DNA of 64,000 bases. Origin: Asticcacaulis machinosus. Its GTDB lineage: Bacteria; Pseudomonadota; Alphaproteobacteria; Caulobacterales; Caulobacteraceae. Positions within the stretch are counted from its first letter, which is position 1; every line of letters starts with the position of its first letter. The position numbers and the translations under genes were made by a program. The notes under the pieces are model-generated. The model was given only the letters and a program-made list of their open reading frames with translations, was not told the origin of the DNA and searched no databases. Below, in pieces: positions 3,610-19,546 of this stretch. Location: the NCBI RefSeq assembly GCF_028550435.1, contig NZ_JAQQKV010000002.1:124001-188000 (forward strand), read 5' to 3'.

Positions 3610-3623
3610 TGATATCGTTATCA
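3610..3623. promoter_or_regulatory. Operator palindrome TGATATCGTTATCA
   Basis: One mismatch from the locus consensus TGATATCGATATCA. It lies 95 bases before the receptor start at 3515, paired with a second copy 30 bases further upstream (exactly about three helical turns, centre to centre), which suits cooperative or looped LacI-family binding. Confidence 0.65.
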
Positions 3624-3639
3624 GAAAGCGGCATCAATT

Positions 3640-3653
3640 TGATATCGATACCA
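3640..3653. promoter_or_regulatory. Operator palindrome TGATATCGATACCA
   Basis: Second copy in front of the receptor gene, one mismatch from the consensus and spaced 30 bases from the first copy. Confidence 0.6.
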
Positions 3654-3755
3654 CAAATAAGTCTTACGCTTGTATGACAAATGCGTCAATATATATTCAG
3701 CTCATAGCGGCTAACCTGACGCCTTTATGCCACATATTTTGACACAACCGTCGAA

Positions 3756-4595: not shown

Positions 4596-4631
4596 AACGG
4601 CTCCTCTAACTTCAGCCCATAAACGACAAAA

Positions 4632-4645
4632 TGATATCGATATCA
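4632..4645. promoter_or_regulatory. Perfect operator palindrome TGATATCGATATCA
   Basis: A 14-base perfect palindrome 37 bases before the esterase start, overlapping a possible TTGATA -35 box read leftward. It also lies just beyond the 3' end of the LacI gene. Confidence 0.7.
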
Positions 4646-4683
4646 AAAATGCAAGATATTAAAGCCCTGACTGGCCGCCCGGA

Positions 4684-5736
4684 TTATTCCGGCGCAGGCC
4701 CCGTCGAGTCGCGATCCATCAGGGTGAATTTCATCAGTTGATGGGCAGGCCGTGATGGTTCACCCGATTTCAGCTCTTTGATGCGCTCGAAAATTGTACT
4801 GACCGAACTGCGCCCCATAGCCACAATCGGCTGATGCACCGTAGTCAGTTGCGGCCAGATAGTTGATGCCACCGGCGTGTCGTCAAATCCGCACACACTC
4901 AGTTGCTCGGGGATTGAGATCTTTAGCCCGTGCGCGACCGCCATGACCCCGGCGGCCATATCGTCATTTGAGGCAAATATAGCTGTGGGAGGGTCTTTGC
5001 GATCCAAAAGCTCGCGCCCGGTCTCAAGCCCTGATTTGTAGGTAAACTGCCCCTGCACGACCAGCGCCTCATCCAGAGCAATGCCAGCCTCCGACAGCCC
5101 TTTTAGAAAGCCCTCATAACGGACTTCGGTCGGCGTGTGGGTCGGATTACCCTTGATGAATCCAATGCGCTTATGCCCCAGCTTGATCAGATGGCGGGTA
5201 AGGGCCAGAGCCCCCTGAAAGTCATCAATACGCACTGCTGAAACTTCAGGCAAAGGCCGCGCCGTGGCCAGCGCCAGAACCGGAATCCCCACGCGGGTCA
5301 GCATCTGCACGGTCGGCGCGGAATCACACAGAGGCGGCGGCAAAATCACCCCGTCCACGCCCGCTTCGACCAGGCGATTGACGGCATTTTTCTGCGATTG
5401 CAACCCACCGCATTTTTCCAGCAACAACTGCGCGCCCAGACGCGCCGCCTGATCCAGTCCGCCCAGCATGATTTCATTCAGATATGACGCTGACGGGTGA
5501 GAATAAAGAACACCGATCCGCACCCCCCCCATGCCGGCGCGGGTCGAGCGCGCCGCCATGTTCATGGTATATTTCAGGGCCTTGATTGAGGCCATGACCT
5601 TTTCACGCAAAGGCTCACGCACATTAACGTTCTTATTGATAACACGCGATACGGTCATAGAAGAGACACCGGCGTGTCTGGCTACGTCGTGGATCGTTAC
5701 CGTGCCGCCCTGATCGTTCATACGCTGACGTTTCAT
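4684..5736 (-). CDS. LacI-family transcriptional regulator
   Basis: A 350-aa LacI/GalR-family repressor. The N-terminal helix-turn-helix and hinge helix are clear (TIHDVARHAGVSSMTVSRVI at residues 13-32, then a KALKY hinge region), followed by the two-lobed periplasmic-binding-protein-like effector domain with GVRIGVLYSHPSASYLNE and GFIKGNPTHTPTEVRYEGF. Family members bind palindromes as dimers and release them on binding a sugar. It sits in the middle of the glycan locus, and copies of TGATATCGATATCA stand before the surrounding transcription units, so it is the natural owner of those operators. The start at 5736 has AGGGA upstream; an ATG five codons later is possible. Its own leader lacks that palindrome but holds two different inverted repeats (5790-5822, 5853-5876). 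Confidence 0.93.
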   Translation of the reverse strand: MKRQRMNDQGGTVTIHDVARHAGVSSMTVSRVINKNVNVREPLREKVMASIKALKYTMNMAARSTRAGMGGVRIGVLYSHPSASYLNEIMLGGLDQAARLGAQLLLEKCGGLQSQKNAVNRLVEAGVDGVILPPPLCDSAPTVQMLTRVGIPVLALATARPLPEVSAVRIDDFQGALALTRHLIKLGHKRIGFIKGNPTHTPTEVRYEGFLKGLSEAGIALDEALVVQGQFTYKSGLETGRELLDRKDPPTAIFASNDDMAAGVMAVAHGLKISIPEQLSVCGFDDTPVASTIWPQLTTVHQPIVAMGRSSVSTIFERIKELKSGEPSRPAHQLMKFTLMDRDSTGPAPE

Positions 5737-5789
5737 TTCAAATCCCTGGCGATTCAGCTAACGCAAAAGTAGACCAGCTATTTACTAAA

Positions 5790-5822
5790 GCAAATTTCGA
5801 TCATATTGCATCGTAAATTTGC
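5790..5822. promoter_or_regulatory. Inverted repeat in the LacI gene leader
   Basis: Arms GCAAATTTCGAT and ATCGTAAATTTGC (one extra base in the right arm) flank an 8-base centre, about 54 bases before the LacI start. It differs from the TGATATCGATATCA sites, so it may bind another regulator. Function is a guess. Confidence 0.4.
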
Positions 5823-5852
5823 TCTAATTTTTTAGTGGTCGCTCTCATCTAT

Positions 5853-5876
5853 CCATCAAGTGATTCCACTTGATGG
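5853..5876. promoter_or_regulatory. Perfect 10-bp inverted repeat between GH43 and lacI-type gene
   Basis: CCATCAAGTG-ATTC-CACTTGATGG. It lies 29 bases after the GH43 stop and upstream of the regulator. There is no T-tract on either side, so a classical terminator is doubtful; an operator or an mRNA-end hairpin is possible. Confidence 0.4.
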
Positions 5877-5904
5877 GAAAAACGCTCTGGCTGCGCAATA
5901 AGGC

Positions 5905-7647
5905 TCAAGGCGTCACGCTGAAACTATCAAATTGCGCATATCCTACGCGAGTCGCAACAAACGCCGATGTACCTGAGGCGCTCTGCGCAAACAAGCCGAT
6001 CTGAGTCCCGACCCAACGCCCCGGCTGCGTCATCATGCCGGGCCCAACCGGCGTAAAGACGACCCCATCCAGACTGTAGCTGAACGACACCTTCGCGTGG
6101 GTTGAACGCAGCATGGACGGCCAGTAATGGGGAAACTGCGGCACGGGGTCAGCCACGGTTACCGGCTCAAAGCGCGCACGCACCCATACCGGCCCGTCAA
6201 CACGCACCGGTGCCGTTAAAGAGGTCTCGCTCCCGCCGGCATTGGCCCGCAAACGTGTGACCTGCACCAGCTTTACACCATCGGCAGTGCTTTCCAGTCC
6301 AATCCAGCCATAATCATAGCCAAGCACCAAAAGTCCCGCGCGCTCCCCTGCCAGATTGGGCGTCAGGCTCAGTTTCATCGTCGCGCTGAAACTCATGCCC
6401 GGCAGTTTCTGAGTCAGCAGATTGCCCGCCTCCCATAGATTGACCGATGACGACACGGATTTCAGACGCAGCGCGCCTTTGACAGATGGATCGACCCAGT
6501 CTTCGGACGGATTGGCGCTCCATTGCCAGCCCAAATGATAGCCGTCAGCAAAATCGTCATCCACAGGCAGTCGGGCAATCGGTTGCGACGGTAAATTCGG
6601 CTTTTTGTGACGCCACACCGGCTGGCCGTAGACCTGCCCTTTTTGACGCTCGCCAATAAGGGGCCAGCCATCTTTTTGCCACTGCATCGGTTGCAGCATG
6701 ACGCGTCGGCCATAGGAATCCGTGTCCTGAAAATGCAGGAACCAGTCTTCACCAGAGGCTGTATCAACCCACGCGCCCTGATGGGGGCCGTTCATGGTGG
6801 TATTGCCCTGATCGATAACACTTCGCCCCTCATAGGGGCCATAGATCGATTTCGAGCGAAATACCCCCTGCCAGCCGCCCTTAACAGAACCCGACGGCGC
6901 AAAGATATAATACCACTCACCGCGTTTATAGAGCTTGGGCCCTTCGGTCGTGAACCACGGCATCAACCCTTGCGAGGTTTTGACCTTGGGCAGTTTATCG
7001 CCTTCGATGATACGCACACCCTCATCGACCGTTTTTGTGCCGTCGGCATTGAGCTTTTTAAGCGTAATGATGTTCTTTATGCCCGCCCGTGATCCGGCAA
7101 AACCTATCACCAGATAGCCCTGCCCGTCCGTATCCCAGAACGGAGCTGGATCAATGGCGCCTTTGGTACTGTCGACCAGTACCGGCGCACTCCACGGCCC
7201 CTTTGGGTCTTCGGCGGTCACCAGAAATATCCCGAAATCCGGATCGGGATAATAGATCATGAACTTGCCATTATGGTGGCGAATGGCAGGCGCCCAGACA
7301 CCGCCCCCACGACGGGGCACCGAATGGTGTGCGTCCGGCACATTGCGCGTCAATGCGTGCCCGATCAGAGTCCAGTTGACCAGATCTTTGGAATGCAGAA
7401 CGGGCAGGCCTGGCACATTGGTGAAACTGGACGCCGTCAGATAATAGTCATCCCCAACCCGCACCACGTCAGGATCGGAATAATCGCCCTGAAGCACCGG
7501 ATTGATATAGGTGCCATCGCCCTGATCCGACACCCAGATACCGGCCGGCATTTGTGTATCCGGCACGACCCGCGGCGGCTCGGCAGCCTGAGCCATGACA
7601 GGTAAAACCAGCCCCGCCAACCATAACACTACTGTTGCCTTCATCAT
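5905..7647 (-). CDS. Glycoside hydrolase family 43 (beta-xylosidase/alpha-L-arabinofuranosidase type)
   Basis: A 580-aa secreted enzyme: signal peptide to about residue 22 (LVLPVMAQAA), a five-bladed GH43 propeller, then a concanavalin-like C-terminal domain of about 200 residues. The three GH43 acids are in place: general base D58 (YSDPDVV), pKa modulator D166 (AIDPAPF) and general acid E235 (TTEGPKL). GH43 enzymes with this C-terminal domain mostly remove terminal arabinofuranose or xylose. It is the last gene of a leftward operon; its ATG overlaps the TGA of the GH97 gene by four bases, which suggests translational coupling. Within the locus it would trim side-chain arabinose, which is inference; activity on xylose cannot be excluded. 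Confidence 0.9.
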   Translation of the reverse strand: MMKATVVLWLAGLVLPVMAQAAEPPRVVPDTQMPAGIWVSDQGDGTYINPVLQGDYSDPDVVRVGDDYYLTASSFTNVPGLPVLHSKDLVNWTLIGHALTRNVPDAHHSVPRRGGGVWAPAIRHHNGKFMIYYPDPDFGIFLVTAEDPKGPWSAPVLVDSTKGAIDPAPFWDTDGQGYLVIGFAGSRAGIKNIITLKKLNADGTKTVDEGVRIIEGDKLPKVKTSQGLMPWFTTEGPKLYKRGEWYYIFAPSGSVKGGWQGVFRSKSIYGPYEGRSVIDQGNTTMNGPHQGAWVDTASGEDWFLHFQDTDSYGRRVMLQPMQWQKDGWPLIGERQKGQVYGQPVWRHKKPNLPSQPIARLPVDDDFADGYHLGWQWSANPSEDWVDPSVKGALRLKSVSSSVNLWEAGNLLTQKLPGMSFSATMKLSLTPNLAGERAGLLVLGYDYGWIGLESTADGVKLVQVTRLRANAGGSETSLTAPVRVDGPVWVRARFEPVTVADPVPQFPHYWPSMLRSTHAKVSFSYSLDGVVFTPVGPGMMTQPGRWVGTQIGLFAQSASGTSAFVATRVGYAQFDSFSVTP

Positions 7648-9602
7648 ATTGTCCCTGTTCCTGTGCGCACGAACCGGATCGCCTGACCGCCTGCGGCATT
7701 AAGCTGCAACTTAAGCCGCGTTGTGGCCTCAACCTCCGCCGTTTCAATTTTTACCGCCGTCTTATAGGCCGGACGGCTCAGGGCACCATCCATATACCGC
7801 GTCGCCGTCCATCGTCCATCACCAAGGAAGGACAGATCCAGCTCCAGACGCCGCTCCATCTCATTGGTAATGACCCCCAGATACCAGTCCTCACCCTTGC
7901 GACGGGCAATGACGACATATTCGCCGATCTCTCCGGCAAGGGCACGCGTTTCATCCCAGGTTGTCGGACAGTCATCGAACCACTTCAACTCCGGCCAGGA
8001 CTTTGCCGCATACTTCTCCGGCTTGTCGTACCAGTAGAGCAGGGTCAGTGGGCTGTAGCAGGTGACCGCCAGCGCCAGTTGGTGGGCATTAGTCGTCTGA
8101 TTGCGTTCCTGAGCATAGCAGATGGTGTAGTCGATCGGCCCGGCAATCGGACGGGTATAGGCCAGATTAACGTGATGGCGAGCAGCCGGAAACTGCTCAT
8201 TGCCCTTAACGCCTTCCAGCGTCAGGTAGTTCGGTAAGGTGCGCTCCAACCCCGCAGGCCGCAGATTATCATGCAGATTGACCACCATCCTGTGCTCGCC
8301 GAACGCCTTGACGACCTTATGGATGAAATCAACATCGGATTGGCGACCTTCCCACATGAAGCCCAGTTTAACACCGGCCACGCCCCATTTCCGATAAAGC
8401 TTACACATGGCATCCAGCGCCCGCGTCACCGCTACGCGGTCGATATAGAGCATGACGCCAATCTTTTTCGTTTTGGCATAATCTATGACCCGTTGAAGAT
8501 CCAGGGCCTTGATCGGATAGGTCGGCTCAGACGCATCCGTGCCATCGCCATACCAATGGGCATCGAACAGAACATATTCGATTTTATGCTGATCGGCGAA
8601 ATCGACCGCCTTTAATGAGGCCTCGGTCGAATAGGGCTTCATGATGCGAAACGCCCGGCCCGGCCTGACCCAGGATACGTCTTTCAACTGGCTAGGTGTG
8701 GCCAGTGTCGGTACGATATGGTGCTGCTCAATCAGGCCTTTGGCGCTGTCGGACACCAGCAGCACCCGCCACGGGGTCTTCTGGCCCACCTCAATATCGA
8801 ATTCAGCCTCTTCCGGCGTTTCATCCTCACCACCCCAGCCGGTCGCCCGTCCCGGATAGCGCATAAGATAGGTCACCAACCCGCCCTTATCGTGGGGCTT
8901 TACCATGCAGCGCGGATAGTGCAGGCGATCCGATTCCGCCACATAGGCAAAGGCGCCATTGCCGACATCCACCGTCAAGGGCAGATCAGCATAGGCCCCG
9001 CGATCTGATGAGATCGTCAGATCAGGGTGCTCCAGCGGTGTCAGACGGCTCTGGGTAGAGACATGGATATCCCCCTCATCACGGCTGGAATAAAGGCGTG
9101 CGCGGTCCGGAAAGCGGAACTGGGTGCGCTCCCCCATCAGCCTAAGGCGCTTTCCTTTTGGCAGGCTGACCAGTTGATAGCGCAGGGCCGCCGCGCCGTT
9201 AAAGACCCGGATGATGATATTGAACCGGATAGAGGATTTGGGATCGGTAAGCTCAAGCGTCACTTCCTGAGAGGTCGTGTCATAGGTGCTGGATTGCCCA
9301 AACACCGGCGCCCAGGTTCCGGAATGCGATTTTGGGGTCATGCCTATAAACTGCGCCCCCTCCCCCAACAACCGACCTTCAGCCAGCCATAGGCCCAGAT
9401 CCGACGGCAGCAGAATATCGCGGCCATCAAATCGAGCGCTCCAGTTCGGCACGGCTCCCGACGCATCGATGACCACCTGCAATCGCTTATCCGGCGACTC
9501 CACAATCGTTTGCTCATAGGTTTGCGACTTGGCGGCAGTTGTACTCAATGAAGCCACACCGGCGGCGGTCAGGCTCATAATCTGGCGTCGGTTCGGGGTC
9601 AT
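7644..9602 (-). CDS. Glycoside hydrolase family 97
   Basis: A 652-aa GH97 enzyme (known activities: alpha-glucosidase, alpha-galactosidase). It begins with a Tat-like signal (NRRQIMSLTAAG), then the N-terminal beta-sandwich (LQVVIDASG onward), the (beta/alpha)8 barrel (KYVLFDAHWYG-like segment near 344-351, GVAGVKLGFM at 407-416, TLEGVKGNE at 461-469) and a C-terminal beta domain. In retaining GH97 members an Asp serves as nucleophile in the VKxDF segment; here that place is Gly414, while Glu463 and Glu469 are present, which is the pattern expected for the inverting subgroup. It is joined by four-base overlaps to the genes on both sides. The natural substrate is uncertain; an alpha-linked galactose or glucose cap is the family-based guess. 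Confidence 0.88.
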   Translation of the reverse strand: MTPNRRQIMSLTAAGVASLSTTAAKSQTYEQTIVESPDKRLQVVIDASGAVPNWSARFDGRDILLPSDLGLWLAEGRLLGEGAQFIGMTPKSHSGTWAPVFGQSSTYDTTSQEVTLELTDPKSSIRFNIIIRVFNGAAALRYQLVSLPKGKRLRLMGERTQFRFPDRARLYSSRDEGDIHVSTQSRLTPLEHPDLTISSDRGAYADLPLTVDVGNGAFAYVAESDRLHYPRCMVKPHDKGGLVTYLMRYPGRATGWGGEDETPEEAEFDIEVGQKTPWRVLLVSDSAKGLIEQHHIVPTLATPSQLKDVSWVRPGRAFRIMKPYSTEASLKAVDFADQHKIEYVLFDAHWYGDGTDASEPTYPIKALDLQRVIDYAKTKKIGVMLYIDRVAVTRALDAMCKLYRKWGVAGVKLGFMWEGRQSDVDFIHKVVKAFGEHRMVVNLHDNLRPAGLERTLPNYLTLEGVKGNEQFPAARHHVNLAYTRPIAGPIDYTICYAQERNQTTNAHQLALAVTCYSPLTLLYWYDKPEKYAAKSWPELKWFDDCPTTWDETRALAGEIGEYVVIARRKGEDWYLGVITNEMERRLELDLSFLGDGRWTATRYMDGALSRPAYKTAVKIETAEVEATTRLKLQLNAAGGQAIRFVRTGTGTI

Positions 9603-10681
9603 TGAGGCGTCTCCAATGTTTTTAAATTCCAGGTGTCATACCAACGGATCACCGGCTTATCGTTTTCCCATTCAATCGGCAGCCACAGGTAACGGCCATC
9701 GATGGCATCCTTCGGCCGCCAGATGTCGCCCATAAAGATATGGCCATCACCATAGGGCAGCACGAAGGTCGATTGCCCGCCAAAGGTCACAGCCTGCTGC
9801 TCAGGCGTTCCGCGCACCGGATTGCCTAGCGCCGTCCACGGGCCGAAAATATGATCGGCCACATAGGACTTTGCCGGGTTCGGTGCCCATCCGGTCAGGC
9901 CGGACGTGATCAGATAATACCGGCCCTTGCGCTTGAAAATGGCCGGCGCTTCGTCATCGCCCATCGGCAACATTCGCGCATAGTCACCCGCCGGACGCAG
10001 ATAATCATCCGTCAGCCGGGAGATATGAAGCGTATGGTTTTCTTCTGAGGCATAGAGGTGATAGGCGGCACCATCATCATCGACAAACAGCGTCATATCG
10101 CGCGCCATCTGCCCGGTCTCAAAGTCACGCGCCACAACGGTACGGGCAGGGTCTTTATCTCTGTCTGGCAAATTTACAGGCCATACACCGGCATTCGGAC
10201 GGAATGATCCAGTATATCGGTAAGGCCCCGTCACGGTGTCGGCCACCGCCACCGCTGAGCGAGCGGCCTTATAGCCCAGTCCCTTCAGTTCCAGATGGAA
10301 CCACATCACGAACTTTCGGGTTTTGGCGTTATAGATCACCTTGGGCCGCTCAATGACCGATCCGCGCACAATGTCGCTCATCGGATCATCAACCACCTTA
10401 AGCGCTACACCTTCGTCCTTCCAGTCAGTGAGATTACGGGAACTATAGACATGCACACCAACATGGGCGCGATTGCCAGCATCACCGGCGATCTTGTGCT
10501 CACCGAACCAATAATAGACGCCGTCATGCTGTAAAATGCCGCCGCCATGCGCGTTGATATGCACGCCTTTATCGTCCGGCCAAAGCGCCCCCGGCGCAAT
10601 CGCATCAGACCGGATCGGCGTTTGCGCCACCGCAACCGGCGCCATCAGCAGACACAGGACAGAAAGACATAAGGATTTCAT
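9599..10681 (-). CDS. GH43 subfamily-24-like protein, probable exo-beta-1,3-galactanase
   Basis: A 360-aa secreted protein (signal peptide ending APVAVAQ, residue 20). The opening INAHGGGILQHDGVYYWFGE and the RDMTLFVDDDG segment are typical of the GH43_24/GH43_34 branch rather than of xylosidases. Candidate catalytic residues are E112 (ERPKVIYN), E244 (DEAPAIF) and Q303 (GGQSTFVLP). Exo-beta-1,3-galactanases of this branch lack the usual Asp base and use a Glu/Glu/Gln set, which matches. Such enzymes strip the beta-1,3-galactan backbone of type II arabinogalactan and can bypass branches. ATG 10681 was chosen because GGGAG precedes it; a TTG two codons upstream is possible. It follows the FGE-like gene at once and overlaps GH97 by four bases. 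Confidence 0.8.
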   Translation of the reverse strand: MKSLCLSVLCLLMAPVAVAQTPIRSDAIAPGALWPDDKGVHINAHGGGILQHDGVYYWFGEHKIAGDAGNRAHVGVHVYSSRNLTDWKDEGVALKVVDDPMSDIVRGSVIERPKVIYNAKTRKFVMWFHLELKGLGYKAARSAVAVADTVTGPYRYTGSFRPNAGVWPVNLPDRDKDPARTVVARDFETGQMARDMTLFVDDDGAAYHLYASEENHTLHISRLTDDYLRPAGDYARMLPMGDDEAPAIFKRKGRYYLITSGLTGWAPNPAKSYVADHIFGPWTALGNPVRGTPEQQAVTFGGQSTFVLPYGDGHIFMGDIWRPKDAIDGRYLWLPIEWENDKPVIRWYDTWNLKTLETPQ

Positions 10682-10683
10682 AT

Positions 10684-11454
10684 TCAAGGCTCCCGTGCGA
10701 TACGCAAGCCCACACCGGGACCGCCAAACTGAGCGCGGAACCGGTAAGCACTTCTTAGCTGTTCCGGCCGCGTATCAAAGGCGCCGCCACGCAATACACG
10801 CATGTGGCAATCGGGCTCCGTCACCGCACTGCCATCGGTCGGTGCCTGATAATAGCCGGATTCCCGATAACAGTCGGCCACCCACTCCCAGACATTACCG
10901 TGCATGTCATAGAGGCCAAAGCCGTTGGGCCTATATTGCCCGACTTGCCCAACGCGCCCCAGACCGGATGCGGCATAGTTGGCCTCAGCCGGTGAGATCC
11001 TATTGCCCGTATGATAGAGCGTATCGGTACCGGCACGCGCCGCATATTCCCACTCGGCTTCGGTCAGAAAGCGGTACTTCAGACCGGTCGTTTCAGACAA
11101 CCAGACCACATAAGCTTGCGCCTCTTTCCAGCGCAGATCCCAGACCGGATAATCCGGCCCGGCCGACTGACGCAGAGATTTACACACTCCGGCCACCACA
11201 CAGGCGCTCCACTGGGCCTCCGTGACCTCATATTTTGAGACATAAAACCCCTTGAGAACCACCCGGTGACGCGGCGCCTCATCGCCCTCACGACCAGGCT
11301 CTGCGGCTTTGGAGCCCATGTCAAAGGCGCCGCCCGGCACCAGCACCATTTGCGGCAGATGGCCTGAAGCCTCTGAGCGTGGCGCCGCCCAGCCCGCACC
11401 CGCCATCGCGACGCCCAGCAGGCCCGCACTCAGGGTTATCGTTCGGATACCCAT
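10684..11454 (-). CDS. FGE/sulfatase-modifying-factor-fold secreted protein
   Basis: A 256-aa exported protein with the formylglycine-generating-enzyme fold: signal peptide to about residue 24, then MVLVPGGAFDMGS, VSKYEVTEAQWSACV, RFLTEAEWEYAARAG, LYDMHGNVWEWVADC and MRVLRGGAF. True FGEs use a Cys pair in the segment after RGG; here that segment reads TRPEQLRSAYRFRAQ and has no Cys, and no sulfatase gene is nearby. It is therefore unlikely to make formylglycine and may be a ligand- or glycan-binding relative. It is the first gene of the leftward operon, 49 bases after a perfect operator palindrome (11503), with GAGG about 10 bases before the ATG. Confidence 0.82.
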   Translation of the reverse strand: MGIRTITLSAGLLGVAMAGAGWAAPRSEASGHLPQMVLVPGGAFDMGSKAAEPGREGDEAPRHRVVLKGFYVSKYEVTEAQWSACVVAGVCKSLRQSAGPDYPVWDLRWKEAQAYVVWLSETTGLKYRFLTEAEWEYAARAGTDTLYHTGNRISPAEANYAASGLGRVGQVGQYRPNGFGLYDMHGNVWEWVADCYRESGYYQAPTDGSAVTEPDCHMRVLRGGAFDTRPEQLRSAYRFRAQFGGPGVGLRIAREP

Positions 11455-11502
11455 CTCAGCATTTCCTCTGTTTTATTTTTTATCGGCCCAGACTACACAT
11501 TA

Positions 11503-11516
11503 TGATATCGATATCA
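11503..11516. promoter_or_regulatory. Perfect operator palindrome TGATATCGATATCA
   Basis: Lies 49 bases before the FGE-like gene, at the same distance and sequence as the sites before the esterase and the 795-aa protein gene. Confidence 0.72.
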
Positions 11517-11518
11517 AA

Positions 11519-11558
11519 TAAAAAAAAGCGGCTGAACCACATATGGGTCACAGCCGCT
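11519..11558 (-). terminator. Orphan intrinsic terminator, leftward
   Basis: On the minus strand an 8-bp AGCGGCTG/CAGCCGCT stem is followed by eight T. It lies upstream of the leftward operon and after no recognised gene, so it must end a short leftward transcript, or be left over from a lost gene. Its loop shares CATATGT with the receptor terminator at 505-538. Confidence 0.65.
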
Positions 11559-11649
11559 GAAAGGTCCCAGGGAAGGATGCTTCAGGAGGGAGGCCTGAAG
11601 GCTCCGGCGAAAAGAGGGACATTCCGCCGGGATGCGCAGACATAAACAT
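11548..11649 (-). CDS. Possible 33-aa small protein or part of a small RNA
   Basis: An ATG-started leftward frame whose TGA lies inside the terminator hairpin at 11519-11558. The peptide is Pro/Ser/Gly-rich (starts MFMSAHPGGM, ends TFQRL). No clear ribosome site precedes it. It lies between an operator palindrome (11710) and a terminator, so a short transcript of about 150-190 nt is likely; whether it is translated is open. The same stretch folds into hairpins (arms CTTCAGG/CCTGAAG and CGGCG/CGCCG), so a structured RNA is an equal alternative. Confidence 0.25.
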   Translation of the reverse strand: MFMSAHPGGMSLFSPEPSGLPPEASFPGTFQRL

Positions 11650-11709
11650 ATTGGCCGCGCGCACGTAAGACTTAAGGACAACGCCTCACACGCTCACCCT
11701 ATACCAAAC

Positions 11710-11723
11710 TGTTATCGATATCA
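11710..11723. promoter_or_regulatory. Operator-like palindrome TGTTATCGATATCA
   Basis: One mismatch from consensus, midway in the divergent region and 61 bases beyond the start of the small leftward frame. It may serve that transcript, or be an auxiliary operator for looping between the sites at 11503 and 11848. Confidence 0.6.
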
Positions 11724-11818
11724 ATGATTATTTTCAGGCCAAGCCTAGAACCTAAGCCGCATAAGGGATACGCCTCATCAAAAGCCTTCACCACCACCAA
11801 AGCTACCGACATACAGAC

Positions 11819-11848
11819 TTGACAGTTGCAAAAATTCAGCCCCTTTAT
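11819..11848 (+). promoter_or_regulatory. Candidate sigma-70 promoter of the rightward operon
   Basis: A perfect TTGACA -35 at 11819-11824 with a weak CTTTAT -10 18 bases on. The perfect operator begins at its last base, so bound repressor would cover the start of transcription. Confidence 0.5.
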
Positions 11849-11861
11849 GATATCGATATCA
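11848..11861. promoter_or_regulatory. Perfect operator palindrome TGATATCGATATCA
   Basis: Lies 46 bases before the ATG of the 795-aa protein gene, immediately after the candidate -10 box. Confidence 0.72.
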
Positions 11862-11906
11862 GAAAATCATCCATGCCCATCCGGGTTAAATGGAGAGGAA
11901 ACACAG

Positions 11907-14294
11907 ATGCACACTTCAAAAACACCTGCGCACAGGAAAGGTTCCGTGCTGGCTGCAGCATTGCTGTTGGGAGCCTCTCCCCTGCCCGTTCTGGCGGCGG
12001 GCCATACCGATACGTTGATTTTCGGCGACACAAACTCAGAGGCCGAACATAAACTGACCGCCGAAAACAGCGACATCATTACGGGCGGCCTCGGGCAGTC
12101 CGCGCGGCGCCTGCTGCCGTTAAAAGCCGGCGCCACAAATACTGATGAATGGCGCGGCGGCACAGCCGCGTTTCAGCTTAAGGTTAAGGGGGATGAGCAA
12201 AATTACCTGACGGTTCGCCTGTGGGGCTCAGACATCTCAACCAACCGTACGACTCTTTATTGCGATGGCAAGCAGGTCGGCTACCGCCAGCTCAGCGATA
12301 TCGATATTCTGGATCAGGGCACCCACGGCCAGATAAAGCCGGGGCAATTTCACTACGTCACCCATCCCCTGCCGACAGCTTTGACCCAGGGCAAGTCCCT
12401 GATAAATTGCCAAATGCGCGCTACCGGCCCGATCTGGCGTTACGGCGGTGAGCTTGCCAAATTTCAAAAACCGATGACGGAACCATCCCGCGGTTTTTAT
12501 GCGCTTATCGTCCATTCCGATAAGATGATCGAGTTTACGGGCAATGACGGAGCCCCTGTGAATTTTCCGGTTAATCCGGACAAGGGTGGTGACGTCTTGA
12601 ACCGGGTCAAGGCCCGCGTAAATGATCAGGTCGTTAAGTCCTTGTCGCTTAAGGGTCGCGCCCCGCATCAGATGGAAATCTCCTTTCTGGCCCGGACTTT
12701 TGAGACAAAATGGACGGCCGGTTACCATAATCGCGATAGCCTGACAGCCATTATCAAAGGCGCCGACGCCTATTATGAGCAGTTTAAAACCAATCCCGAT
12801 ATTGCCATAAATGATGTCAACACGCCCAATCCGGGATGGTTTGGCCTCGGCCTTCTGGGGGAGGCGTTAAAAATCACCGCCCCCTTTATTCAAGAGGATC
12901 TGGACGGGCTTCTCATGGGGCCGGACGGCAAAAACATCAGCCGGCGTCAGGCCTATGAGGCCATGTTCGTCTATAGCCGCGAGTGGAACAAGAAGAACCG
13001 CAGGCTGTACACCAACCAGTCGATGATCAAGGATCTTTATGGCATCTGGAATAATAACGAAGGCCTGATTGCCATAGGCAGTCCAAAGGCCGAGCCACGC
13101 GCGAGACTGCTGCCGTTTTTCTATGAATCTGTGGGCCTTATTCCCTGGACCGGCAGCCTGAATGACAAGGGTGAGCCCACCTATGCGGCTTCGGAATCAG
13201 ACGCAAAATTCTCCGTTCCGAAAAACTACTTTGAAACGACCACCACAGGGCTGACCAAGGAACTGGGCTATGTCGGCGGATATGGCGAAGTCCTTGATTG
13301 GGTTGCGGCCCTTTATGAGGCCACCCGCCCCGCCAAAGGCCAACCGGGCGATGTCAAAATCCGCGATCAACTGGTGAAAATCGCGCAGGCCCGCGGATAT
13401 TTCCGCGTCCCGCAGGCCGACGCGAAGGGCTATAAATCCATGCGTCTGGAGACTGGCATCGGCTGGCGCGACATGTATTATCCCGGTGACGTCATGTACG
13501 GACAAAAACCGTCCTGGGAATCCTCCCCGCTTCAGGTCGCCGTGGCGACACAAGACCCCAGACTGATATCCTACGCCCAGCAGCAGATCGCTGAAAACCA
13601 GTTTTTCTCCAGCGTCGAACACATGATGACGGCCAAGACGCTGCGTGCCACGATCGGGTTGATCGACGTAATAGACGAATTTGAAACCCTTTCCAAACTA
13701 CCACCACAACCCTATAAGTTGCCCATGTCAGAGGGTGAGCCCGACTTCGTCTTTAGCGACGAAGAAAATGGCGTCGTCGCCGTCAAACACGGCAAGGATA
13801 TCTTTTATGCGTCCCTGTACTGGCGTGCCAACTATGGCATCAGCGGTGTCGGTCGTGTTCACTACATTACCCCGCAAACCGATCGGCTGGCGACCGTAGC
13901 TCTGGACCGGCAGGCATATGCACCCAGCGGCCTATACTATACCCGCCCCAATAACCCTCATATCAATGGCACACGATTTACGGTCAAATATCCTGATGAC
14001 GCCGATGTCTGGACGGCCGGTGAAAAAGACCCTGTCGCCAAACTGCCGGAGGGTTCGAAATATGTGCCGGGCGAAGACAACCCCTATGCCGGACGGGCAG
14101 ATTATTATCAGTTGACCTACGGCCCCTATCTTGTGGCCATTAACGGATCGACGCAAAAAAGCTTTGAGCTTAAATTACCGACGCGCACGGCGCCCGTTAA
14201 AGACCTCGTATCCGGCGCTCTTGTGGCCACAGACAAAGCCACGCTCACTGTACCGCCCAGTACAACCACCGTCATCTATCTTGGCAAAAACTGA
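11907..14294 (+). CDS. Secreted 795-aa protein of unrecognised family, candidate polysaccharide lyase or hydrolase
   Basis: I do not recognise a named family. The protein has a signal peptide (VLAAALLLGASPLPVLAAG, residues 14-32), an N-terminal beta-rich part with carbohydrate-module-like features (FQLKVKGDEQNYLTVRLWGS, TLYCDGKQVG), a central helical part rich in Trp/Tyr/Asn (GWFGLGLLGEALKI, YGIWNNNEGLIAIGS, ELGYVGGYGEVLDWVAALYEATR, YYPGDVMYGQKPSWESSPLQVAVA) that resembles an alpha/alpha-toroid, and a C-terminal beta part ending TTVIYLGK. Helical toroid plus beta-sheet is common in polysaccharide lyases and some hydrolases. It heads the operon that contains GH88, an enzyme that consumes lyase products, so it is the best candidate for the missing lyase. 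The ATG at 11907 has GAGAGG eight bases upstream; a longer frame would contain the operator and is rejected. Confidence 0.72.
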   Translation: MHTSKTPAHRKGSVLAAALLLGASPLPVLAAGHTDTLIFGDTNSEAEHKLTAENSDIITGGLGQSARRLLPLKAGATNTDEWRGGTAAFQLKVKGDEQNYLTVRLWGSDISTNRTTLYCDGKQVGYRQLSDIDILDQGTHGQIKPGQFHYVTHPLPTALTQGKSLINCQMRATGPIWRYGGELAKFQKPMTEPSRGFYALIVHSDKMIEFTGNDGAPVNFPVNPDKGGDVLNRVKARVNDQVVKSLSLKGRAPHQMEISFLARTFETKWTAGYHNRDSLTAIIKGADAYYEQFKTNPDIAINDVNTPNPGWFGLGLLGEALKITAPFIQEDLDGLLMGPDGKNISRRQAYEAMFVYSREWNKKNRRLYTNQSMIKDLYGIWNNNEGLIAIGSPKAEPRARLLPFFYESVGLIPWTGSLNDKGEPTYAASESDAKFSVPKNYFETTTTGLTKELGYVGGYGEVLDWVAALYEATRPAKGQPGDVKIRDQLVKIAQARGYFRVPQADAKGYKSMRLETGIGWRDMYYPGDVMYGQKPSWESSPLQVAVATQDPRLISYAQQQIAENQFFSSVEHMMTAKTLRATIGLIDVIDEFETLSKLPPQPYKLPMSEGEPDFVFSDEENGVVAVKHGKDIFYASLYWRANYGISGVGRVHYITPQTDRLATVALDRQAYAPSGLYYTRPNNPHINGTRFTVKYPDDADVWTAGEKDPVAKLPEGSKYVPGEDNPYAGRADYYQLTYGPYLVAINGSTQKSFELKLPTRTAPVKDLVSGALVATDKATLTVPPSTTTVIYLGKN

Positions 14295-14310
14295 GGCGCG
14301 GAGATAAAAG

Positions 14311-15765
14311 ATGAAACTGAATATTGCCTCCCTCACCTGCCTTAGCCTTATAGCGCTGGCCCCATATACATATGCCGACAGTTTAAGGGCCTATCCCGCA
14401 CCGCCCGTGCCTATGGTCTATGCCGCGCACAACGACACCTACACCGTGCGCGTCAGGACACCCGGCGGCGAATGGCAGGACCTGTACGAATATAATATCC
14501 GCGTGGACTGGGACGAGCCTCAGGACGCATCGATGGTCTATTTTGATTTCACAGGTACGGTCGAAGTTGAGGTGCAGAAAAACAACGGCAATTTTCAAAC
14601 CGTTGACGTGTTGCCCCGCACGCCTGCAACCAAACTGACCCGAAAGGGCAAGATCATCAGCTTTACTCTGGATCGGCCTCAGCGGTTCTCACTGCAATTC
14701 GATGATGACCGTCTGCACAACCTGCATATTCTGGCCGGCGCACCACCACCGCCCCGACCGGAGGGCGAAAATGTCCGTTATTACGGCCCCGGCATTCACG
14801 CCCCGGATGATGGCGGCAAGATTTTCAGGCCGCGCTCCGGTGAGACAATCTATCTGGACGGCGGCGCCATACTGAGCGGCAATTTCGATCTCAGAGGCGT
14901 TCAGGATGTCCGCATCATGGGGCGCGGCCTGATTTACAACTCCGGACGCGCCATTGAAATCGACGGCTCAAAAAACATCACGATTGAAGATCTGATTGTC
15001 GTCAATGACGATAAGGAGGCCGCTGCGCGCATCTCCAATATCCGCCATTCCGTCAATGTAAAAGTCAACGGACTGACCGGCTTTACCTCAGGCAAATGGT
15101 CCGATGGCTTCGGCATTTCCACATCCCAGCACATTGCCGTCGACCGGGCTTATCTGAGAACCTCAGACGACGCCGTCGTGGTGTATGCTGTCAATGACTG
15201 CCCCATATGTGCGACGAAAACCGATACGGCGCCTTCGTCAGAGTCGTTTGACACCTATGATATCAAAGTAACGAATTCGACCTTCTGGAATGATGTCGCC
15301 CACGCCATGTATGTCGGCCATTTCGGCGACAATTCAAATCCGCGCACCATACGCAATGTCACCTTTGACAATATCGACGTTCTCAACCTCGACGAAGATG
15401 ACGAGCCCTGGGAAGGGGCTATGGCCATTTTTTCCGGAGATTCCACCCTTATCCGTGACATCTCGTTCTCCAATATCCGCGTAGAGCGCATCGAAGAGGG
15501 CAAGTTAATCCATATTGTTGCCGGCAACAGCTCCCGTTACAACAAAGCGCCGGGCCGGGGCGTGGAAAATGTTACCCTGCGCAACATCACCTTCACCGGA
15601 GAGGGGATGCCCAGCGCTTCCGTTATTTCCGGCCTGTCGCCTGATACGGCCGTCAAGAACATCCGCATCGAAAACCTGGCTATCGGCGGGCGCAAAATCC
15701 GCACACCGGCAGATGGCGATATTAAGGTCGGATCATATGTTGAGGGCTTTGAAATCGCTAAGTAA
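14311..15765 (+). CDS. Right-handed beta-helix glycosidase (GH28/GH49-like)
   Basis: A 484-aa secreted protein: signal peptide to about residue 22, an N-terminal beta-sandwich (YTVRVRTPGGEWQDLYEY at 44-61 through residue about 145), then a parallel beta-helix from GGAILSGNFDLRGVQDV onward. The probable active-site strands are WSDGFGIS (D265) and RTSDDAVVVY (D286, D287), the acidic layout of GH28 and related GH49 enzymes. GH28 members hydrolyse galacturonan or rhamnogalacturonan, GH49 dextran; the extra N-terminal sandwich resembles the second group in layout. It follows the 795-aa gene by 16 bases with GGAGA before the ATG, so they are one operon. Substrate remains open; an acidic pectic or arabinogalactan-linked chain fits the neighbours. 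Confidence 0.75.
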   Translation: MKLNIASLTCLSLIALAPYTYADSLRAYPAPPVPMVYAAHNDTYTVRVRTPGGEWQDLYEYNIRVDWDEPQDASMVYFDFTGTVEVEVQKNNGNFQTVDVLPRTPATKLTRKGKIISFTLDRPQRFSLQFDDDRLHNLHILAGAPPPPRPEGENVRYYGPGIHAPDDGGKIFRPRSGETIYLDGGAILSGNFDLRGVQDVRIMGRGLIYNSGRAIEIDGSKNITIEDLIVVNDDKEAAARISNIRHSVNVKVNGLTGFTSGKWSDGFGISTSQHIAVDRAYLRTSDDAVVVYAVNDCPICATKTDTAPSSESFDTYDIKVTNSTFWNDVAHAMYVGHFGDNSNPRTIRNVTFDNIDVLNLDEDDEPWEGAMAIFSGDSTLIRDISFSNIRVERIEEGKLIHIVAGNSSRYNKAPGRGVENVTLRNITFTGEGMPSASVISGLSPDTAVKNIRIENLAIGGRKIRTPADGDIKVGSYVEGFEIAK

Positions 15766-15779
15766 CCTCACTTAACAAT

Positions 15780-15804
15780 ACTGGGGGCAGACAGTGCCCT
15801 CAGT
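15780..15804 (+). terminator. Possible terminator hairpin after the beta-helix gene
   Basis: A 10-bp stem (ACTGGGGGCA/TGCCCTCAGT, one G-T pair) with a 5-base loop, 15 bases after the stop. The following T-tract is weak (CTGTTT), so termination may be partial. Confidence 0.5.
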
Positions 15805-15947
15805 CTGTTTAAGAAAGGTTAGAGCCGCCGCATCGCACAGCGCATCCCGCACCATAGGCTTGCCGTCCTGTGCTCCGGACATAGCGTCAAAATTTCAGAA
15901 CCCAACACATCTGACAGATATTTTGCCTGTACAGGCTCATTTAATTT

Positions 15948-15961
15948 TGATATCGATATCA
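15948..15961. promoter_or_regulatory. Perfect operator palindrome TGATATCGATATCA
   Basis: Fourth perfect copy, 114 bases before the symporter ATG. It gives the transporter-GH88-kinase genes their own regulated promoter. Confidence 0.72.
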
Positions 15962-16074
15962 GCAAAGCAACGTATGATCGATAGTTTTTGATCTGAAATA
16001 TAAATCAAAATACGCAATTGCTCAAAAAAGCGCCGGCGTTGACCCACGACGGTGACAGAAACAGGGTAGAAAAC

Positions 16075-17397
16075 ATGGCTTTAGTATCATCAGGCAATAG
16101 TGCACCTGTCATCGACCGGCCGGGCAGGCTGAAAGTTCAGATCGCCTTAAGCGCTTTCGTCTTTGCCTATTTCGCCTCGCAGGCCATGAGCATTTCCCTG
16201 CTCTCCAACTGGCTGAAATCGACCCTGTCCCTGACCGGAGAGCAGACCGGAACCGTCCTTGGGGCCAATTTTGTCGCCGCCCTTTTGTTTCAGCCGCTGT
16301 ACGGTTTTATCTCCGATAAGATCGGCTTTAAGAAACACGTCCTGTGGTTTCTGGCGATCATGGTCGCCTGCTGCGGGCCGTTCTTCTATTTTGTTTATGA
16401 GCCCCTGCTAAGATCCAGTCTGTTGTTGGGGGCAGCCGTAGGCGGCGCCTATCTGTCGCTGACCTTTATGGCCGGGTCTTTTGCGCTGGAGTCCTATGTG
16501 GACCGCATGGGTCGGCACTACGGCTTTGAGTATAGCCGTGTGCGCATGTTCGGTGCCTTGGGCTTTGCCTGCGCCGCGTTCTTCTCCGGCAACCTGTTCA
16601 ACATCAATCCGCACATCAACTTTTCGATTGCCTCGGTACTGGCCATTGTCCTGATTTCCGTTCTGTTTCTGTTTAAGAACGAAACTGTGGCCGAAGAGGC
16701 AAGCTCAGCCAGCCGCGTCACCCTGAAGGACTCGCTTGCCGTTTTGAAACTGCCGAAGTTCTGGGGGTTCATGGTGCTTATTCTGGGTGTGACCAACCTC
16801 TATCTCGTTTTTGATCAGCAGTTTCCGGTCTATTACGCCTCGCAGTTTGAAACCGAAGCGATCGGTCGCGTCATGTTTGGCCGCCTGAATTTCGCACAGA
16901 TCTTCCTCGAAGCCGGGATGCTGTTTATTGCGCCGTTTATTGTCAACTATACGGGCATCAAACGCGGCCTGTTGCTGGCGGCGGGTATAATGATCATCCG
17001 TATCACCGGCTCAGGTCTGGTCGAAGGCCCGATCGCTATTTCGGCCATGAAAATGCTCCACTCCATCGAACTGCCGATTCTGGCCGTATCCATTTTCCGC
17101 TATATCGCCGCGCATTTTGAGGCGCGCTTCGCATCGACACTTTACATGGTCGGCGTTAGCTTTGGTCACAGTCTGGGGCTGGCTATTTTGTCCAATCCGG
17201 TTGGCCGCCTTTATGACCTGTTCGGTTTTCAGCATACCTATCTGATCATTGGTCTGGGCGCATTGATCTGCTGGATAGCCTCTATCTGGACACTTGCACC
17301 GGACCCTCAGCGCACCTCGATGAACAGCACGGTCGCCTCTCCGGATGCGCCACTTGTCGACCCCGTTCTTAATTCCGTTCCCGATGTAAAGTCATGA
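16075..17397 (+). CDS. LacY-type oligosaccharide:H+ symporter (MFS, OHS family)
   Basis: A 440-aa inner-membrane transporter with about 12 membrane segments. It aligns by eye with E. coli LacY at the functional residues: E139 (LacY Glu126), R157 in SRVRMFG (Arg144), FDQQF at 246-250, R309 (Arg302), and H329/E332 in LHSIELP (His322/Glu325). These carry sugar binding and proton coupling, so active uptake of a di- or oligosaccharide is very likely. The place of LacY Glu269 is Ile276 here, with Glu279 one helical turn on, which may reflect a different sugar. The ATG at 16075 follows AGGG; a TTG further up has no ribosome site. The TGA overlaps the GH88 start by four bases, so the imported product is probably the GH88 substrate. 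Confidence 0.9.
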   Translation: MALVSSGNSAPVIDRPGRLKVQIALSAFVFAYFASQAMSISLLSNWLKSTLSLTGEQTGTVLGANFVAALLFQPLYGFISDKIGFKKHVLWFLAIMVACCGPFFYFVYEPLLRSSLLLGAAVGGAYLSLTFMAGSFALESYVDRMGRHYGFEYSRVRMFGALGFACAAFFSGNLFNINPHINFSIASVLAIVLISVLFLFKNETVAEEASSASRVTLKDSLAVLKLPKFWGFMVLILGVTNLYLVFDQQFPVYYASQFETEAIGRVMFGRLNFAQIFLEAGMLFIAPFIVNYTGIKRGLLLAAGIMIIRITGSGLVEGPIAISAMKMLHSIELPILAVSIFRYIAAHFEARFASTLYMVGVSFGHSLGLAILSNPVGRLYDLFGFQHTYLIIGLGALICWIASIWTLAPDPQRTSMNSTVASPDAPLVDPVLNSVPDVKS

Positions 17398-18614
17398 CGA
17401 CCAACCTTATGACACCCAGACAAAGCCATTCACCGTCTACCGCCCCCGCGCGGGAGCCGCTCCCCAGGCGTAATCTTCCGACCGGCCCCAACAAAGACCT
17501 CATAGACCAAGCGATTGGTACGGCGCTCGCCCGTATTGATAAGGGTCTGGCTGTCTATGGCGATCAGTTCCCGGAACCGTCTTCCGTGGGCAATGTCTAT
17601 CGCACTATGGGCAATACCGAATGGACAAACGGCTTCTGGACCGGGCAACTTTGGCTGGCTTATGAACTTTCGGGCGATGAGAAATACCGCACGGCGGCTG
17701 AACGTCACGTCGAGAGCTTCCATGCGCGCATTTTTGATCAGGTCAATGTCGATCACCATGATCTCGGGTTTCTCTATTCACTATCGTGCGTCGCCGCCAG
17801 CAAGCTGACCGATTCAACACTGGCCCGTGAGGCCGGACTGGAAGCCGCCCGTCTGCTCCTGACACGCTACCTGCCCAAGGCTGGCATCATTCAGGCCTGG
17901 GGCAACCTTTCCGATCCCGCCGAAGCCGGCCGCATGATCATCGACTGCAATCTGAATCTGCCGCTGCTGTACTGGGCGACGGAACAGACCGGCGACCTGA
18001 CCTTTGCCGATGCCGCCGACACCCACATCCAGCAGGCGCTGAAATATATTGTCCGGCCGGATGCCTCGACTTTCCATACCTTTTACATGGACCCCGTAAC
18101 CGGCGCACCGCGCCACGGCACCACCCATCAGGGCTATGCTGACGATTCCTGCTGGGCGCGTGGTCAGGCCTGGGGCATTGCCGGTTTCCCGCTGGTTTAT
18201 CGTTACTTCCGCAAACCGGCCCTTATTGAAACCTCGGCGCGGCTGGCTAACTATTTCCTGAACCGCCTGCCGCAGGACCTCATCTGCTGCTGGGATCTGG
18301 TGTTCACTGATGCGCCCCATGAACGGGACTCATCTGCCGCCGCCATCGCCGCCTGCGGGCTTCTGGAACTGGGCAAATCACTGCCCCTGTCCGACACGGA
18401 TAGCCCCGCCTACCGCGGAACGGCCATTGCCATGGTTGAAAGCCTTATCCGGCTCTATGCCGCCACCCCTGACGATGAGGGCGCAGGCCTGCTCAAGCAC
18501 GGCGTCTACCACATGCCCAAGGGCATTGGCGTGGATGAGTATTGCCTGTGGGGAGACTATTTTTATCTGGAGGCCCTGACCCGCCTCACGCGTATTTGGG
18601 AGCCCTACTGGTAA
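17394..18614 (+). CDS. GH88 unsaturated glucuronyl hydrolase
   Basis: A 406-aa cytoplasmic alpha/alpha-barrel enzyme of family GH88. Family landmarks are clear: TEWTNGFWTGQLWLAYELSGDEKY, DHHDLGFLYSLS, MIIDCNLNLPLLYWA, THQGYADDSCWARGQAW and WGDYFYLEAL. The two essential Asp residues are D123 and D184, 61 residues apart as in the Bacillus enzyme (Asp88 and Asp149). GH88 hydrates the 4,5-double bond of the unsaturated uronic acid that a polysaccharide lyase leaves on the non-reducing end, and so releases it. No signal peptide is present. It is coupled by overlap to the symporter before it and the kinase after it. The first 28 residues are Pro/Arg-rich and not part of the fold. Confidence 0.93.
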   Translation: MTTNLMTPRQSHSPSTAPAREPLPRRNLPTGPNKDLIDQAIGTALARIDKGLAVYGDQFPEPSSVGNVYRTMGNTEWTNGFWTGQLWLAYELSGDEKYRTAAERHVESFHARIFDQVNVDHHDLGFLYSLSCVAASKLTDSTLAREAGLEAARLLLTRYLPKAGIIQAWGNLSDPAEAGRMIIDCNLNLPLLYWATEQTGDLTFADAADTHIQQALKYIVRPDASTFHTFYMDPVTGAPRHGTTHQGYADDSCWARGQAWGIAGFPLVYRYFRKPALIETSARLANYFLNRLPQDLICCWDLVFTDAPHERDSSAAAIAACGLLELGKSLPLSDTDSPAYRGTAIAMVESLIRLYAATPDDEGAGLLKHGVYHMPKGIGVDEYCLWGDYFYLEALTRLTRIWEPYW

Positions 18615-19546
18615 TGCAGATTGGTCTTGATTTCGGAGGCACAAAGATCGAAGCCGCCGCCCTTGATGAGGCGGGTAATTATCTGCTGCGTATCCGCAAA
18701 CCGAACCCCGGCAACTATGATGATGCCTTAGAGGCCGTCTGTGATCTGGTGGCCTATGTCGAACGTGAAACCGGCCAGACCGGCACGGTGGGCATCGGCA
18801 CACCGGGGTCGATTTCGCCCACGACCGGCCTGATGCGCAATTCAAACTCCCTGTACCTGAATGGCCGGCCTTTCCGCGAAGACCTGACAACCGCCATGGG
18901 CCGCGAGGTGCGTCTGGCCAATGATGCCAATTGCTTTGCGCTATCCGAAGCCGTCGATGGCGCCGGTGCCGGCGCCACTGTCTGCTTCGGCGTCATACTG
19001 GGCACAGGATGCGGCGGGGGCGTTGTTATTGACGGGAAACTGGTCGAAGGGGCCAATGGCATTGCCGGTGAATGGGGGCATAACCCCCTTCCCTGGCCGG
19101 AAGCGTCTGAAACTCCCGGCCCGAAATGCTACTGCGGCAAACGTAACTGCCTTGAACAATGGATATCAGGCACAGGGCTGCAACGTGACTACCAAGCTCA
19201 GACCGGAACCGTACTTTCGGCTGAAGAGATCATCAACCGGGCCCGTCTCGGCGAAGCTGTGGCCAATGACGCCTTCAACCGGCTGATCAACAGGATTGGG
19301 CGCGCCATTGCCACGGTCTGCAATATGATTGACCCTGACGCCATTGTCATTGGCGGCGGCCTGTCCAATGTGCCGGAAATCTTTGAGCGCATCCCGACAA
19401 TCATTTCCGAGAATGTGTTTGCCGATTCCTGGTCGGCTAAGATTGTGCAGGCCAAGTGGGGAGATGCCTCTGGGGTAAGAGGCGCTGCACGTCTGTGGGC
19501 TGTGGGCGAAGTTCCGCGCGCCTTGCCCCAGACACGGATCGCCTGA
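18614..19546 (+). CDS. ROK-family sugar kinase (fructokinase/glucokinase type)
   Basis: A 310-aa ROK kinase. The ATP loop is DFGGTK (residues 6-11), the catalytic Asp is D104 (ANDANCF), and the ROK zinc site is complete: H156 of GEWGHNPLPW with C172, C174 and C179 of CYCGKRNCLEQW. These enzymes phosphorylate free fructose, glucose, mannose or similar sugars in the cytoplasm. Its ATG overlaps the GH88 stop by one base (TAATG), so it is last in the symporter-GH88-kinase operon and probably primes a sugar set free by GH88 or other enzymes. The exact sugar is not decided by sequence. Confidence 0.88.
   Translation: MQIGLDFGGTKIEAAALDEAGNYLLRIRKPNPGNYDDALEAVCDLVAYVERETGQTGTVGIGTPGSISPTTGLMRNSNSLYLNGRPFREDLTTAMGREVRLANDANCFALSEAVDGAGAGATVCFGVILGTGCGGGVVIDGKLVEGANGIAGEWGHNPLPWPEASETPGPKCYCGKRNCLEQWISGTGLQRDYQAQTGTVLSAEEIINRARLGEAVANDAFNRLINRIGRAIATVCNMIDPDAIVIGGGLSNVPEIFERIPTIISENVFADSWSAKIVQAKWGDASGVRGAARLWAVGEVPRALPQTRIA

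Follow-up and report, generated by a model that had tools for sequence, protein, structure and literature searches.

Genes and operators at the locus

The window analysed here is a 64,000-nt stretch of the Asticcacaulis machinosus genome (C2:124001-188000), and coordinates refer to it unless another stretch is named. At 11907-14294 on the forward strand it carries the coding sequence of a 795-aa putative secreted protein, which we call X. A ribosome-binding site, GGAGAGGA, lies at 11892-11899 (+), 7 bases 5' of the ATG. The first 30 codons (11907-11996, +) encode a signal peptide with probable cleavage after residue 30, a hydrophobic segment ending in VLA/A that we read by eye rather than with a predictor. 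The list of open reading frames places the start at a TTG at 11826; because that codon falls upstream of an operator (11847-11861), ATG 11907 is the likely start. Aligned to its relative in A. endophyticus (locus L003), X shows 82.6% nucleotide identity over 2385 aligned bases, with 71, 42 and 303 differences at codon positions 1, 2 and 3; for these 87% identical proteins dN is 0.071, dS 0.866 and dN/dS about 0.08. With homologues, a ribosome-binding site, a signal peptide and synonymous-dominated divergence, X is a real gene, and the open reading frame and signal peptide of the preliminary description of this DNA hold up.

X is directly followed by a GH28-type protein (14311-15765, +; PF00295, E 7.7e-12) and, on the same strand, by a LacY-type sugar transporter (16018-17397, with an ATG at 16075; Pfam and NCBIfam), a GH88 unsaturated glucuronyl hydrolase (17394-18614; Pfam), closely related to enzymes of this activity with solved structures (2zzr, E 3.5e-112), and a ROK sugar kinase (18542-19546; Pfam and NCBIfam). 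The reverse strand carries the 5' end of a second TonB-dependent receptor that continues left of the window (TonB2, 1-317), a complete TonB-dependent receptor (570-3551; Pfam and NCBIfam), an esterase-like alpha/beta hydrolase (3756-4646; Pfam and NCBIfam), a LacI-family regulator (4684-5736; Pfam and NCBIfam), an arabinofuranosidase-like GH43 protein (5905-7647; Pfam), a GH97 protein (7644-9602) whose nearest NCBIfam model is a retaining alpha-galactosidase (298 bits, against a cut-off of 800), another GH43 protein (9599-10687) and an FGE-sulfatase-domain protein (10684-11454). The GH43 protein at 9599-10687 is closest to exo-beta-1,3-galactanases. It matches 6eug (titled beta-glucanase, which we take to be a GH43_24 galactanase) at E 1.1e-108 and 7bys (titled galactan 1,3-beta-galactosidase) at E 3.6e-54, and we give it the GH43_24 label provisionally. 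The FGE-sulfatase-domain protein is in the regulon described below, yet there is no sulfatase among the cluster proteins scanned. Further right, a PhoX-type alkaline phosphatase with a PKD-like domain match lies at 25326-27779 (+).

The genes of the cluster, from TonB2 to ROK, share an operator, presumably read by the LacI-family regulator. With up to 3 mismatches it has 21 matches in the window against 1.06 expected. At 1 mismatch or fewer it occurs at nine places within 23.3 kb (C2:116655-139961) and once more on C1; the backward-read control gives 1 match at that threshold. The operator earlier placed at X is thus real. Upstream of X we find ATGATATCGATATCA at 11502-11516, a copy with 2 mismatches at 11709-11723, and ATGATATCGATATCA again directly 5' of X at 11847-11861. 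X had been described as the head of the GH88 operon and as standing behind the strongest promoter; the first claim does not hold and the second finds no support. X precedes GH28, and LacY-GH88-ROK has a separate operator of its own (15947-15962); in A. endophyticus the X-GH28 unit and the LacY-GH88-ROK unit are kept apart by a gene on the other strand. A sigma-70 scan of 11400-16100 gave 6 sites in all, against 4.0 expected, and no site upstream of 11907.

The regulon continues left of the window (stretch L023) with a GH28 protein, a 2OG-Fe protein, a 794-aa protein with a Hepar_II_III_C domain (E 3.9e-19) and TonB2, whose whole gene is at L023:15378-18317. Operators stand there at L023 10654 (GH28) and L023 18380, the latter before TonB2 with the lyase gene after it. 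This Heparinase II/III-type lyase gene, 2.7-5.1 kb left of the window, is next to TonB2 on the same strand, and we infer that the two form one operon.

Our best guess for the target of the regulon in this organism is type II arabinogalactan, or else a comparable plant glycan that bears glucuronate, because of the exo-beta-1,3-galactanase relative, which also lends support to the arabinogalactan setting proposed earlier. The carbohydrate role proposed for X is supported too. X has homologues in one further genus (see below), hereafter the second genus. The parts common to it are X, TonB2, the lyase, GH28, GH43, LacY, GH88 and LacI, with GH97 seen in one locus (L039); the operator is present there at LacY-GH88-ROK, ahead of TonB2-X and in the gap that separates the lyase from its neighbour. 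The second-genus stretches examined have no homologue of the galactanase, which counts against arabinogalactan, and for that reason the common parts could be aimed at a broader target, or at another one, in that genus. Near X in A. endophyticus (L003:13880-15766, -) and Sphingobium (L019:14307-16274, +) there is a fused beta-lactamase-like and alpha/beta-hydrolase protein, identified by a Pfam run on the Sphingobium copy and by homology for the other; in the window, the gap from GH28 to LacY spans only 250 bases.

Homologues of X and library searches

X has no match in Pfam at E<=1 and none in NCBIfam at E<=0.1. Against the PDB sequences, phmmer at E<=10 reports five sequences, unrelated by name, the best at E 0.042. 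A family profile (A1) has no PDB match at E<=10, a more diverse one (A5) has two unrelated matches (E 0.11 and 0.39), and a 41-residue piece around Y459 has none at E<=10. The family members scanned behave as X does, with no above-cut-off match in Pfam, NCBIfam or the PDB. We also ran ten open reading frames from relatives against Pfam; nine lack a match, but some may be in the wrong frame in these GC-rich genomes, and we do not use them as evidence. The earlier statement that X matches no known family is therefore borne out for Pfam, NCBIfam and PDB sequences, and X is a probable enzyme of a family absent from these three. Among the titles and abstract openings listed in literature searches, none describes a new family of lyases or toroid enzymes from Asticcacaulis, Caulobacter or Halocatena. 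X could still be a toroid member of a lyase or hydrolase family already in CAZy and beyond the libraries searched: PMC12088678 counts 44 PL families. Some of these may be without a Pfam model or solved structure. Given the lack of above-cut-off matches for X and for the members scanned, we consider this unlikely.

Among named organisms, A. endophyticus and Asticcacaulis sp. UBA2476 have the nearest relatives, both at 87% identity. Homologues occur in 13 of 298 genomes, the source genome included, and in 2 of 48 genera (five genomes in the same genus, eight in the second). A search of 72,556 plasmid records adds a Sphingobium plasmid at 41% identity and four Halocatena (archaea) plasmid records at 24-25%. 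Samples of the class (337 genomes) and phylum (349 genomes), with at most three first-look candidates per genome scored in the rows shown, return in each case the source genome itself and no other. One large alphaproteobacterial family has no homologue in 248 genomes, viral contigs have none confirmed among 27 pattern stretches, and phages give no match. This patchy spread, reaching archaea, suggests lateral transfer of the family.

One Halocatena cluster (L020) has two further, larger members of the family, at L020:14707-17988 (1094 aa) and L020:19584-23249 (1222 aa). Both are extended at the C-terminus and match nothing in Pfam or NCBIfam. The X-family members of that cluster adjoin annotated sulfatases, an alpha-L-fucosidase and a GH172 protein. 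In another Halocatena locus (L021), two mannonate dehydratases lie near the X-family member; therefore uronate catabolism is also close there.

A Heparinase II/III-type lyase accompanies X

The preliminary description reasoned that GH88 needs a lyase product, that no polysaccharide lyase is visible in 1-19546, and that X must therefore be the lyase. The observation stands as far as it goes, in that the 12 proteins of 570-19546 scanned include no Pfam lyase, but the cluster extends beyond the window, and a gene of a lyase superfamily lies just left of it. The reasoning does not hold: X has a lyase-type partner under the same operator, and the two are co-inherited. The same description named, as what would speak against it, a lyase just left of the window together with an inactive X, and the first half of this is what we find in the Hepar_II_III_C protein.

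The lyase neighbour is present in 15 of 298 genomes, which include all 13 with X; the other two (G023 and G105) lack X. Since the 13 genomes belong to related species, they do not count as independent cases. The circular Sphingobium plasmid has a PF07940 place at 4619-5077, some 15 kb from X when measured over the origin, and the two Halocatena plasmid records tested have no PF07940. The 1.25-Mb Sphingobium "plasmid" NZ_CP081002.1 looks like a second chromosome, because it has two 16S rRNA genes (549537-551025 and 799098-800586). In the A. machinosus genome PF07940 has two places at E<=0.01, neither of which is X. A second Hepar_II_III_C protein of this genome lies at G000:C2:743679-744419. 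As a candidate for toroid homology between X and its lyase neighbour we considered a collinear profile match over 212 columns, and rejected it: its P is 0.13-0.14, and an unrelated esterase used as control gives 0.11.

TonB2 also keeps company with X. It adjoins X in all five second-genus loci fetched with flanks (of eight found) and in Sphingobium. Such an arrangement would suit a non-catalytic glycan-binding or surface protein passing substrate to the TonB2 receptor, and so would the CBM35-like N-terminus of X described next. We regard this role as improbable, since helical-domain polar residues that stay invariant down to 20-25% identity better suit an active site than a scaffold.

Predicted fold of X

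The AlphaFold model of whole X, built on 12 alignment rows, has a pLDDT of 59 and shows strands to about residue 205, helices at 227-597 and strands from 614. The crop 205-612 reaches pLDDT 72 and pTM 0.77, with roughly twelve main helices by manual count. We delimit an N-terminal beta domain (residues 33-205; 12003-12521, +), a helical toroid domain (residues 227-600; 12585-13706, +; whole and crop models) and a C-terminal beta domain (residues 614-795; 13746-14291, +; whole model). The models support the layout of beta, alpha/alpha-toroid and beta parts that had been read from the letters alone.

The N-terminal domain is weakly like DUF6805 and CBM35. Its profile match to DUF6805 (PF20620) has E 0.018 and 15.8 bits, below the curated cut-off of 27. 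In the fold search with the whole model, rank 1 is 5opj (GH146-type) over 171 columns, and several CBM35 modules are listed, among them structures bound to glucuronate and to unsaturated galacturonate. Three matches reach E<=0.001, namely 5opj, a CBM35 and a dextran dextrinase at 21 A rmsd. We rejected the whole model as a basis for naming the fold: it is too poor (pLDDT 59), and these three matches are N-terminal or apparently spurious.

For the toroid crop, none of 482 fold matches (E<=10) reaches E<=0.001. The 50 matches listed include seven PL8/PL17 structures (8fnx, 2wda, 4ojz, 8g0o, 8fyg, 2x03 and 8bdd; TMq 0.20-0.41) and three of GH88, GH105 or GH154; the rest are mostly designed or unrelated helical proteins. 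The best PL8 match has E 1.2e-3 with the whole model and 0.068 with the crop, and PL8 TMq values are 0.24-0.41. The structure prediction and fold search that the preliminary description proposed thus yield a toroid model of medium confidence and no significant match of the toroid to a known family. Neither fold nor profile searches give the toroid a significant match, so we cannot assign X to a known family.

Several of these results bear on whether X is a toroid glycoside hydrolase that works on the products of the Heparinase II/III-type lyase, for instance a beta-glucuronidase or an exo-acting enzyme on side chains capped by rhamnosyl or glucuronyl residues. Hydrolases, GH78, GH95 and GH65 among them, commonly have a beta-toroid-beta layout. 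The DUF6805-like N-terminus points the same way, this domain being found beside a GH127-type domain in another protein of the same genome (L002), as do the GH88, GH105 and GH154 structures among the crop matches listed and the presence of a lyase already in 13 of 13 genomes with X. A sub-threshold match to the GH42 C-terminal domain appears in 3 of 15 family members (best E 0.0042), though not in X, and the dextran dextrinase takes ranks 3 and 6 in the fold search with the whole model, albeit with an rmsd of 20-21 A. Against this, GH15, GH65, GH78, GH94 and GH95 titles are absent among the 50 crop matches listed. The candidate catalytic residues, to which we turn now, do not favour a hydrolase, and we hold it to be a possible reading that falls well short of even odds.

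Conserved residues and a candidate active site

We compared 15 family members, and also used an alignment of eight, in which X is joined by seven others at 20-45% identity, the 1094- and 1222-aa archaeal paralogues among them. Nine polar residues of the helical domain are invariant in the eight-member alignment: D287, R346, R366, N370, Q371, N384, E452, Y459 and R521. A further five, E407, E461, R496, R500 and D505, hold throughout the 15 members but lose their invariance in the eight-member alignment. The distance from E452 to Y459 is 7 in 15 of 15 members and that from Y459 to R521 is 57-62; N370 to Y459 varies from 79 to 103, with a variable, poorly modelled stretch between. Neither alignment has an invariant histidine in the toroid or the C-terminal domain. 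The only invariant histidines of the family are H48 and H203, of which H203 alone persists in the eight-member alignment.

N370 (codon 13014-13016, +), in the motif RRxYTNQ, is a candidate carboxylate neutraliser, and Y459 (codon 13281-13283, +), in GYVGxYGE, a candidate catalytic tyrosine. In the crop model they stand at the starts of helices 371-389 and 459-472. E452 and R521 fall in stretches with pLDDT below 50 in both models. A hydrolase would need an acid/base pair, which could be E452 with D287, or be drawn from E407, E461 and D505 in the closer members. As D287 and E452 are the sole invariant acids of the helical domain in the eight members, and D287 is inside helix 276-295 of the whole model, we doubt that X has a two-acid site.

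The conserved arginines suggest an acidic substrate. The invariant residues would suit a uronate site and loosely resemble those of toroid lyases. In the 12 rows of Table 4 of PMC12088678, the neutralising residue is Asn in 9, Tyr follows it by 51-63 residues in all 12 (positions subtracted by us), and His is present in all 12. X matches the Asn-Tyr order loosely, but its distance of 79-103 is outside the range tabulated there, and its toroid is without the invariant His of those rows.

Comparison with known families

The closest candidates are PL8, the Heparinase II/III superfamily, PL27 and the DUF6805-bearing hydrolases. PL8 (hyaluronate and chondroitin AC lyases) shares with the modelled X a toroid followed by a beta domain and the order Asn to Tyr, may have a similar Tyr-Gly motif, and provides the best-placed lyase matches in both fold searches, among the matches listed. 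However, there is no significant toroid fold match and no sequence match, whole X, its pieces and its relatives have no Pfam match to PF08124/Lyase_8, and X has an extra N-terminal beta domain. Of the catalytic Asn-His-Tyr of PL8, X has the invariant Asn370 and Tyr459 and no invariant toroid His. In the PL8 enzyme HylB the residues given are Asn222, His272 and Tyr281 (PMC10697930); the His is 9 before the Tyr, whereas X has a Glu 7 before it. Our search with PF08124 for PL8 comparison sequences found none in 150 genomes and none in 14 control genomes, and is uninformative on X.

The Heparinase II/III superfamily (PF07940; relatives PL12, PL15 and PL21) likewise has a toroid and a beta domain, but X lacks a PF07940 match and a significant profile match to its neighbour. 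We cannot place X in PL8 or in the Heparinase II/III superfamily, because the defining features tested are not found in it. Nor can we place it in PL27, since no similarity is detected: no PL27 chain is recognised in the searches of PDB sequences, a set that presumably includes the solved PL27 chains, or among the 50 matches listed for each fold search. PL27 L-rhamnose-alpha-1,4-D-glucuronate lyases have an N-terminal beta-sandwich and an (alpha/alpha)6 barrel (PMC8377490), which resembles the N-terminal beta and toroid layout of X, as does the arabinogalactan-cap context; the C-terminal beta domain is additional in X. DUF6805, an accessory domain of GH127/GH146-type enzymes, is like the N-terminus of X by the weak profile match and the 5opj fold match. 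That profile match is below the curated cut-off, and X has no match to PF07944, the GH127/GH146 catalytic domain; only the accessory-like N-terminus is similar.

Discussion

Our main reading is that X is a secreted (alpha/alpha)-toroid CAZyme that may act on uronate-bearing glycans by beta-elimination, within a LacI-type polysaccharide utilisation regulon, and we give it a probability of about 0.4. The analysis establishes the gene, its common operator, its co-occurrence with the lyase, the conserved residues and, in a model of medium confidence, a toroid; that X is catalytic, its lyase chemistry and its substrate are inferences from these. Lyase chemistry on a uronate-bearing glycan is slightly favoured over hydrolysis. 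Points in its favour are the toroid between beta parts, the invariant polar residues, the common operator, GH88 and the galactanase relative. Counting against it, GH88 already has a lyase partner and does not need X as one, and X has no significant toroid match in fold or profile searches, no toroid His, and an Asn-Tyr distance unlike that of the lyases compared. If X is a lyase, R346, R366, N370, Q371 and R521 would hold and neutralise the substrate carboxylate, Y459 would act as both base and acid with the help of E452, and GH88 would clear the unsaturated products of both X and the Heparinase II/III-type lyase.

A bolder version has X founding a new toroid PL family of Alphaproteobacteria and haloarchaea, in which a tyrosine assisted by Arg, Asn and Glu replaces the His, and which forms with the Heparinase II/III-type enzyme a fixed lyase pair on glucuronate-capped arabinogalactan. 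Taken as a whole, we find this version doubtful.

If X is catalytic, it would add a family to the tools with which arabinogalactan-proteins and plant gums can be trimmed, a task with few known cap-removing enzymes, and would show that a toroid active site can lack the histidine usual there. With a recognisable lyase as close partner, a common operator and a range that extends from Alphaproteobacteria to archaea, X lends itself to functional tests.
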